A stretch of 21,297 nt of DNA from a virus, in the IMG/VR virus record IMGVR_UViG_3300044815_000137, positions 1 through 21,297 of that record. One strand, written 5' to 3'. The position numbers and the translations under genes were made by a program. Positions 17,213-18,917 of the stretch are shown piece by piece. Within the stretch, counting starts at the first letter, position 1; the number at the start of each line of letters is the position of its first letter. Below the pieces are notes generated by a model that worked only from the letters and a program-made list of their open reading frames with translations, had not been told where the DNA came from and did not search any database.

Positions 17213-17599
17213 TCAGTCCCTTGGTCTAACAGGCAGGCCGAGCCTGACGGCAAGGCGGTCGAGCGCGTCGAGGCCGGCGTGCTCGACGCGTTGCTTGAAG
17301 CTGTTGTGGCAGGGGGCACAGCTGCTCACCCACCAGGTGGGATCCCAGAACAGCGCCATGTCGCCTCGGTGCGGATAGAAGTGGTCGACGAGGGTGGCCA
17401 CCGTGATCCTGGGCGACCTCGACGTGGCGCAGTATCGGCAAAGCGGCGAGGACCTGAGGTGTCTCTTCGACTCGCGGGCCCAGCGGGCGTCGTAGCCTCG
17501 GGACGATGCGGATCCTCGCCGTTGGTCGGTCAGCCTGGCGATCGCCGTGCTGACCTTCAGCTGCTGCTTACGGCGTGCGTTCGGAGGCTTGCTCGGCAT
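17213..17599 (-). CDS. HNH endonuclease
   Basis: A 128-aa basic protein. ATG 17599 is preferred over TTG 17605 because GGAGG lies 8 nt upstream of the ATG. It carries SRGYDARWARESKRHLRSSP, the usual start of phage HNH proteins. The zinc-binding Cys pairs are CRYC (54-57) and CAPC (94-97), and the HNH core runs from VDHFYPHRGD (about 71-80) through WDPTWW to CHNSFKQ. Phage HNH enzymes of this type lie next to terS and assist cos cleavage in HK97-like packaging. It overlaps the methylase gene end by 32 nt. Confidence 0.88.
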   Translation of the reverse strand: MPSKPPNARRKQQLKVSTAIARLTDQRRGSASSRGYDARWARESKRHLRSSPLCRYCATSRSPRITVATLVDHFYPHRGDMALFWDPTWWVSSCAPCHNSFKQRVEHAGLDALDRLAVRLGLPVRPRD

Positions 17600-18413
17600 G
17601 GGCAAGGCCTCCGGTGATAATCAGCTCACCGGCCTTGGTGGGTGTTCCCCCGACCGAGTAGGTGACGTCGAGGTCGACGTGGTCAAAGGCCGAGAAGATC
17701 TCGCGCACCTCGGGCCGATCGTTGAGCGACAGGATGAAGCGCCCCTGCAGGTGGGTCAGCACCTCGGCCATTTCGACGAACTCAGCCCGGGCGAACATCC
17801 CAGGGCCATAGTCGTCCTCGCAGCCGTAGTACGGCGGGTCGAGGTAGAAGAGGGTCTCGGGCGTGTCGTACCGCTCAATGAAGGACCGCCACTGCAGGCG
17901 CTCGATCGTCACCCCCGACATGCGCTCGTGCAGCTGCTCGAGCTCGCCCTGCAGGCGGGTGACGTCGATGCGGCCAGGCCTATGACGGCTGACCCCGAAG
18001 TTGCGACCATCGACCTTCCCGCCGAAGGCCGTGCGCTGCAGGTAGAGGAAGCGGGCCGCCCTCTGCAGGTCGGTCAGCGTGTCGGGGTCGACGGCGATCA
18101 GACGCTCGAACTCGGCCCGGGCGGTTATCTGAAACCGAAGCATGTCCAGGAAGGCCACGAAGTGGACCTGCAGCACCCGGTAGAAGTTGGAGACGTCACG
18201 GCTCCAGTCGTTGACCACCTCGGCCTGGGGCCTGACTGGCCGGCGCAAGAAGACGCCGCCCATCCCGACGAAGGGTTCAGCGTAGGTCTTGTGCGGCACG
18301 GCGCCGATCATCGTGATCAGGCGACGCGCCAGGTTGCGCTTGCCGCCGATGTAGGGCGCGGCCGGCCTGGCCTGTTGAACGGCCTGAAGGCCGGAGATTT
18401 CGTGGTGAGGCAT
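17568..18413 (-). CDS. DNA adenine N6-methyltransferase (D12 / Dam class)
   Basis: A 281-aa protein from ATG 18413. It has the N-terminal PYIGGKRNLARRLI (about 20-33), S-adenosylmethionine-binding motif I YAEPFVGMGGVF (44-55), and catalytic motif IV YLDPPYYG (190-197). This order is that of D12-class (alpha group, Dam-like) enzymes, and the length is usual. It transfers a methyl group to adenine N6 in a short site; the recognition sequence cannot be read from the protein, though GATC is common for this class. It probably protects phage DNA from restriction or masks it from host factors. The gene before it encodes a Com-like regulator that overlaps its start, and the start region can fold over the ribosome binding site. 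Confidence 0.92.
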   Translation of the reverse strand: MPHHEISGLQAVQQARPAAPYIGGKRNLARRLITMIGAVPHKTYAEPFVGMGGVFLRRPVRPQAEVVNDWSRDVSNFYRVLQVHFVAFLDMLRFQITARAEFERLIAVDPDTLTDLQRAARFLYLQRTAFGGKVDGRNFGVSRHRPGRIDVTRLQGELEQLHERMSGVTIERLQWRSFIERYDTPETLFYLDPPYYGCEDDYGPGMFARAEFVEMAEVLTHLQGRFILSLNDRPEVREIFSAFDHVDLDVTYSVGGTPTKAGELIITGGLAHAEQASERTP

Positions 18414-18576
18414 CAGGCCCCTTCCCTTCTGCCGACGATGCGGCGTTGGGGCTCAGAGGCCTCGGATGGTTGTCGGCGCCGCATCGGCGGCACCTGATTT
18501 CGATCTTGCCGGCCAGCGCCTGGCGATCGGCACGGAAAAGAAGCGCGTCGCACGACACGCAACGGATGGACTCCAT
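18277..18576 (-). CDS. com: Com-like zinc-finger translational regulator
   Basis: A 99-aa frame from ATG 18576; TTG 18588 is an alternative start. The first 40 residues match the Com family of Mu-like phages: MESIRCVSCDALLF, then KIEIRCRRCGADNHPRPLSP, with Cys 6, 9, 29 and 32 forming a zinc knuckle. In Mu, Com binds mom mRNA and opens a stem that hides the ribosome binding site. Here the neighbour is a Dam-type methylase rather than mom. The usual Com is about 60 aa. This frame continues 137 nt into the methylase gene, and the Arg/Gly-rich tail after about residue 60 looks like a read-through shadow rather than a domain. Confidence 0.82.
   Translation of the reverse strand: MESIRCVSCDALLFRADRQALAGKIEIRCRRCGADNHPRPLSPNAASSAEGKGPDASPRNLRPSGRSTGQAGRALHRRQAQPGASPDHDDRRRAAQDLR
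18407..18463 (-). promoter_or_regulatory. Predicted RNA stem hiding the methylase ribosome binding site
   Basis: On the minus strand AGGCCTCT (18462-18455) can pair with AGGGGCCT (18422-18415): eight pairs including one G-U. This covers the purine run just before the methylase ATG (18413). An alternative fold pairs GAGGC/GCCTC (18463-18459 with 18411-18407) and GCCCC/GGGGC (18452-18448 with 18421-18417), leaving the A and T of the ATG in an internal loop. A small GCCG/CGGC stem sits in the main loop. The structure lies within the Com-like reading frame. Confidence 0.4.
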
Positions 18577-18597
18577 GTATCGACTCAACGTGGAAGA

Positions 18598-18696
18598 GTT
18601 CCCGCCGGTCGGACCGGTGGCGGGAACTGACGGGGCTGCTAGCGCCCCGGACGTGCGGGCTCCACTCCCGCGGTTCAGGGCGTTGGAGCGCCCTGA
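18598..18696. ncRNA. Four adjacent hairpins between the divergent com-like and FlbD-like genes
   Basis: Plus-strand hairpins: (1) 18598-18627, arms GTTCCCGCC/GGCGGGAAC with an inner GGT/ACC; (2) 18631-18649, CGGGGC/GCCCCG, loop TGCTAGC; (3) 18655-18671, GCGGG/CCCGC, loop CTCCACT; (4) 18675-18696, TCAGGGCG/CGCCCTGA, loop TTGGAG. Linkers are only 3-5 nt. CTCCA of loop 3 is complementary to TGGAG of loop 4, and CTCC could also pair with the GGAGG of the downstream plus-strand gene. It could be a structured 5' leader, a small RNA, or (minus strand) the com leader. The strand is not decided by the sequence. Confidence 0.45.
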
Positions 18697-18725
18697 CCCC
18701 CGCTGTTTTGCAACGGAGGAATGTG

Positions 18726-18917
18726 ATGGTCAAACTTGTGCAGCTAATCCGCCCCCACGACGGGCAGGCGTTCTATGTGAACGCCGATCTCGTCGCGGAG
18801 GTAAAAGAAGCAGCGTCGGAAGGCGGGCAAGAAGCGTCGATCGTAAAATTCGCGCCTGAGTACTGGGTCGTGGTGCAAGGTTCCGTGGACTTTGTTGTCG
18901 GCAAGCTAAACGCCTAG
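18726..18917 (+). CDS. FlbD-like small protein (only plus-strand gene)
   Basis: A 63-aa protein. ATG 18726 is chosen because GGAGGA (18715-18720) ends 5 nt upstream; an ATG at 18721 is followed at once by TGA. The pattern MVKLVQL...GQAFYVNADLVAEVK, then VKF...YWVVVQGSVDFVVGKL, resembles the short FlbD family (PF06289-type: M.KL.RL.G..F.LN.DLI..IE...V....G....V..S..E.V..I). This family is named from flagellar operons and is distinct from the Caulobacter transcription factor FlbD. About 20 of 63 codons end in A or T by my count, more than in neighbouring genes. Opposite orientation and composition suggest a moron-type insertion. The function in a phage is unknown. Confidence 0.65.
   Translation: MVKLVQLIRPHDGQAFYVNADLVAEVKEAASEGGQEASIVKFAPEYWVVVQGSVDFVVGKLNA

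Follow-up and report, generated by a model that had tools for sequence, protein, structure and literature searches.

The window, by which we mean the whole 21,297-nt stretch of viral DNA that was analysed (IMG/VR record IMGVR_UViG_3300044815_000137), carries on its minus strand a com-like zinc-ribbon gene (ATG at 18576) that overlaps a downstream gene for a D12-class DNA adenine methylase (dam), and a dense array of hairpins stands just ahead of com (Table 1). The Com protein of the window (99 aa) extends across the dam start (18277-18413) by about 45 residues read in a different frame; most other Com proteins that we found are about 56-72 aa long. In phage Mu, too, the Com zinc-ribbon gene overlaps the downstream modification gene, and Com binds a hairpin ahead of mom (native GAAUGC-CUGCGA-GCAUCCC; PMC6483171). 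The window holds a hairpin resembling this target before its own modification gene; its CTCTGA loop, upstream of the methylase start, matches the form CNNNGA by sequence. A by-eye reading finds loops of that form before the modification genes of many related phages, including B3, JD024, KS5 and TJ1. As judged by sequence, the operon of the window is of the com-mom kind.

Table 1. Features of the leader and operon in the window. Numbers in brackets after hairpin names are those of the sequence-only reading.
Feature	Position	Strand	Description	Basis
dam, D12-class DNA adenine methylase gene	17568..18413	minus	second in operon	PF02086, E 5e-20; phrog_56, E 2.5e-75
com-like zinc-ribbon gene	18277..18576	minus	99 aa, first in operon	PF10122, E 1e-6; relative in contig L002 74% identical
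Hairpin resembling the published Com target before mom	18448..18463	minus	GAGGC-CTCTGA-GCCCC, within com	sequence only; compared with PMC6483171
Segment 4	18597..18606	minus	GGCGGGAACT; 3' arm of the stem with segment 3 (hairpin 1; 18597-18606/18619-18628, 10 bp)	stem read from sequence; pairing test, double changes, state energies
Segment 3	18619..18628	minus	AGTTCCCGCC; partner segment 2 or 4	pairing test, double changes, state energies
Hairpin P4 (hairpin 2)	18631..18649	minus	stem 18631-18636/18644-18649, 6 bp; varies between relatives	stem read from sequence
Hairpin P3 (hairpin 3)	18655..18671	minus	stem 18655-18659/18667-18671, 5 bp; 7-nt loop AGTGGAG	sequence, covariation
Hairpin P2 (hairpin 4)	18675..18696	minus	stem 18675-18682/18689-18696, 8 bp; 6-nt loop CTCCAA	sequence, covariation, loop C.A/U.G exchange
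Segment 2	18697..18704	minus	AGCGGGGG; partner segment 1 or 3	own-versus-swapped pairing test, double changes
Segment 1	18712..18719	minus	CCTCCGTT; pairs with segment 2	minus-strand fold; complementarity over 51 leaders

The array had been described from the letters as four stems of 9, 6, 5 and 8 bp separated by 3-5 nt. All four are present, the first being one pair longer than described, and the gaps between them are 2, 5 and 3 nt. A fifth, imperfect stem (18697-18704 with 18712-18719), missing from that list, adjoins the array on the minus strand. The predicted minus-strand RNA fold of 18590-18740, made up of the separate hairpins plus the fifth stem, has an energy of -71.7 kcal/mol, where shuffled sequences average -54.9 (z -4.16; equalled in 0 of 200 shuffles). 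The plus strand of the same interval gives a z of -2.0 and another predicted shape, in which hairpins 2-4 are merged. Comparison with shuffled sequence on both strands, which the sequence-only reading had proposed as a check, thus shows that the minus strand is structured beyond chance. On that strand the end of segment 4 lies 20 nt from the com ATG, and we read the array as, most likely, the structured 5' leader RNA of a phage com-dam modification operon.

A near relative, contig L002, holds the array together with com and dam at 93.6% identity across the array and the com start; the similarity ends at segment 2, and the gene on the far side differs. The arms of P2 change from TCAGGGCG/CGCCCTGA in the window to TTAGGGCG/CGCCCTAA in L002, a compensatory pair, and the two sequences differ by three single-base indels, which makes it unlikely that the array stretch is coding. 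The loop of P2 is CTCCAA in the window and CGCCAA in L002. These differences bear on the earlier proposal that complementary CTCCA and TGGAG loops could kiss, and that loop 3 could pair instead with the GGAGG ribosome site of a plus-strand FlbD-like gene, so as to switch that gene. The complementary pentamers do exist, but in the window only: the L002 loop breaks the pair and, in a set of nine leaders, native loop pairs show no advantage in complementarity over swapped ones (p 0.10), so that we rejected a P2-P3 kissing loop. The switch on the FlbD-like gene was rejected as well, because L002 has a different gene at that place; the FlbD-like gene has no relative among the viral contigs searched, and the plus strand folds differently. 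A plus-strand riboregulator of this gene is thus extremely improbable. The broader suggestion of a riboregulator or leader was right in kind, while its strand, gene and switch are unsupported. The FlbD-like label of 18726-18917 is itself weak (Pfam E 0.056, under its cut-off).

Compensatory changes, which had also been put forward as a check, were found in further homologues. Both sides change in 7 of the 13 pairs of P2 and P3 in nine window-type leaders and in 11 of the 13 in 51 aligned members, where there are 112 double-change cells against 27 in shuffles and the covariation score is 0.468 against at most 0.080 in slid controls; this larger alignment was built with the covariance model and is so biased towards it. 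The outermost modelled P2 pair is not a true pair, and G.U pairs are nearly missing from P2 and P3. Bases 1 and 6 of the P2 loop are C.A in 29 cases, U.G in 12 and U.C in 5 (Fisher p 7e-12, uncorrected for relatedness), and the C.A/U.G exchange preserves a wobble-type pair, which speaks for a folded single strand. Comparison of the leaders shows that compensatory change preserves the core formed by segment 2, P2, P3 and segments 3 and 4, which stands, in sense orientation, upstream of com-dam, com-mom or dam alone in many phages and prophages.

Direct DNA similarity to phage records was nil. Searching for the P3 hairpin as an exact pattern returned the L002 contig and unrelated matches only, and an initial scan of genomes with a pair of close Com sequences gave no matches. 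We sampled about 60 com genes from viral contigs and genomes, and added named phages. Most of the sampled genes have a multi-hairpin leader ahead of them, and in most of these leaders a G-C-closed hairpin with a 6-nt loop stands roughly 90-120 nt upstream of the start codon. Leaders built to this plan lie 5' of com in the isolated phages B3, UMP151, JD024, KS5, AP3 and TJ1. Upstream of com in Mu there is a short AT-rich stretch without hairpins, and the leader is also absent in Chuche, Smp131, DVM-2008, Carl1 and AC844P1 among the com phages examined. The leaders of Pseudomonas, Burkholderia, betaproteobacterial and Mu-like types share the plan of the window type, their kinship being one of layout and position and not of model match, as they are too distant for a window-type model to recognise.

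Such a covariance model (R1), trained on nine window-type leaders, was searched against more than 700 bacterial genomes (one class, two orders) at E 0.001. Matches were present in 11 of 385, 38 of 317 and 3 of 36 genomes and amount to 61 distinct places outside the two genomes from which training sequences came, with about one false match expected. Among the 43 genome loci that we read, com and/or dam or mom follows the leader in 38, and a com-profile match in the sense reading frame was seen in 17, the frame crossing the leader in a few (e.g. L129). In 21 loci, 20 of them distinct (L102 and L111 are copies), dam comes directly downstream and com was not found; in several of these the methylase starts with MES, as Com does. 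The remaining five have neither com nor a modification gene, one of them with a broken dam remnant. Weak matches to R1 were also obtained in isolated phages with dam and without com, Microcystis phage Mae-JY29 (E 1e-4) and Komagataeibacter phage phiKM1 (E 0.001). Since dam-only loci keep the leader, it goes with the modification operon and not with Com. At L110 (1501-1554, minus), where no com, dam or mom was found, fully covaried segments GCGAGG/TCTCGC/GTGAGA precede a small, possibly membrane-spanning frame.

Around the conserved hairpins lie four segments: segment 2 stands just before P2, segment 3 follows P3/P4, and the end of segment 4 is mostly 16-28 nt from the start codon. When 22 varied leaders are compared, the pairing of segment 2 with its own segment 3 beats swapped combinations (mean -14.0 vs -11.35; 0 of 50000 permutations), in search windows picked after inspection; two control regions are null in the same test (p 0.96 and 0.73), and a loose wide-window scan, unlike the positioned test, is not significant (p 0.056). 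The 2:3 pairing is weaker in the Mu-like type (p 0.01). Segments 3 and 4 likewise prefer each other (0 of 50000 permutations), with windows that overlap by 9 nt. Double-change cells, counted in a hand-set register, number 15 for 2:3 against 1.7 permuted and 12 for 3:4 against 3.6. Segment 1, which is complementary to segment 2, stands upstream of it (complementarity against shuffles, p 1.8e-7 over 51 leaders). The segments can therefore pair in turn (1:2, 2:3, 3:4), so that 2:3 excludes both 1:2 and 3:4. The two states are predicted to be near balance, 3:4 being favoured by a median of 2.75 kcal/mol in 42 leaders.

Judging by where it lies and how its segments can alternate, the leader may act in cis as a gate on the operon's first gene. 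Pairing of segment 3 with segment 2 would create a closed domain around P2 and P3, and its pairing with segment 4 would instead create a hairpin whose end lies some 20 nt upstream of the start codon, while segment 1 could sequester segment 2. The leader would thus switch in cis between 2:3 and 1:2 plus 3:4, gating the first gene and thereby timing DNA modification. Runs of at least four T after segment 4 occur in 3 of 50 leaders, so a U-tract is not the rule and an intrinsic terminator was rejected. A hidden ribosome site was rejected as a general rule because its predicted accessibility is equal in the two states (0.47 vs 0.46 unpaired, p 0.56), and pairing of the P2 loop or segment 2 with the ribosome site gave no signal. 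Neither textbook output fits as it is; the 3:4 hairpin might instead be read near the ribosome site by a protein or the 30S subunit, or the switch might act through RNase cleavage or Rho. In one subtype, Pseudomonas phages L089, L090, L091 and L096 plus L080, a stretch just before the com start (e.g. GGCTTTGCAG) has its complement in the 3' arm of P3 (CTGCAAGCC; p 0.003 over 22 leaders), which could mask the ribosome site. On balance, we favour the view that the 2:3/3:4 leader acts as a cis expression switch gating the modification operon.

The same inverted repeats could be recognised as DNA, as binding or methylation-sensing sites in the promoter region of the modification operon, the RNA folding being incidental. 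The 3:4 tips of L018, L023, L024, L101, L106 and others are perfect palindromes of 10-16 bp with centres such as TGCA, GCGC, TCGA, AGCT and GATC. Of 64 leaders, 30 have a perfect palindrome of at least 10 bp at the tip, where shuffles give 6.1. A plain RNA hairpin has no need of such palindromes; possibly they serve as loop-loop dimers or as a dyad DNA site. Averaged over many leaders, the two strands fold equally well, so that fold energy does not decide the strand, and this, together with the palindromes and the scarcity of G.U pairs, counts in favour of a possible DNA-level role. Nevertheless, the palindrome sequences vary between phages, no promoter signal is visible upstream of segment 2 in the AT profile, and the alternate 2:3/3:4 pairing with the C.A/U.G loop exchange suits a folded single strand, so we consider a DNA element unlikely.

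Less probable again is a trans-acting small RNA, either independent or derived by processing of the leader, whose place beside the modification genes would be incidental. The compactness of the structure, and its stability even where a different gene follows (L110), would suit such an RNA, but the fairly constant spacing between segment 4 and the start codon and the constant orientation to the gene fit action in cis. Com itself might bind P2 and so set its own level, as the leader is often upstream of com and the loop of P2, in many cases CNNNAA, is similar to the published target loop CUGCGA. Against this, P2 is closed by G-C and Com targets by C-G, several com genes, including that of Mu, have no leader, and P2 loops are alike in kind at loci where dam comes next and a search for com gave none. 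Given the 20 distinct loci of the latter sort, Com binding cannot be the whole function, and we regard Com autoregulation as very unlikely. Because operons without recognisable com retain the leader, the trigger of the cis switch that we favour would not be Com alone.

Attenuators of the trp or erm type have leader segments that pair 1:2, 2:3 and 3:4. The present leader resembles them in that its segments pair in turn, 2:3 excluding 3:4, and differs in lacking a U-tract after 3:4 and a hidden ribosome site, in having segments that flank two extra conserved hairpins, and in that no leader peptide is established. From the com-mom system of Mu it differs by the multi-hairpin leader, which Mu lacks upstream of com, and by also preceding dam where com was not found. 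Like families of Rfam 15 it is a structured leader of protein genes; however, no Rfam 15 family scored above its gathering threshold for the window leader or other com leaders, or was found at relaxed thresholds, and identity with a known RNA family was rejected. As the enzymes encoded downstream vary between operons (dam, mom, N4/N6 methylase), a shared cofactor ligand, as for a riboswitch, is not obvious.

The leader is absent from Rfam and from the open-licence papers searched, and we are confident that a conserved structured leader 5' of phage DNA-modification genes is real and apparently undescribed. DNA modification shields phage DNA from restriction and needs timing; in Mu, Com controls mom, which is a textbook case. 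More tentatively, the leader may represent a widespread, undescribed phage RNA switch, with four alternating segments around a pair of conserved hairpins and, in many cases, a palindromic tip, that times anti-restriction modification in many temperate phages (B3 included) on some signal and without needing Com. Its role is testable in culturable phages such as the long-studied B3. A conserved leader before com-dam, com-mom and dam-only operons would add a layer of control that is independent of Com.
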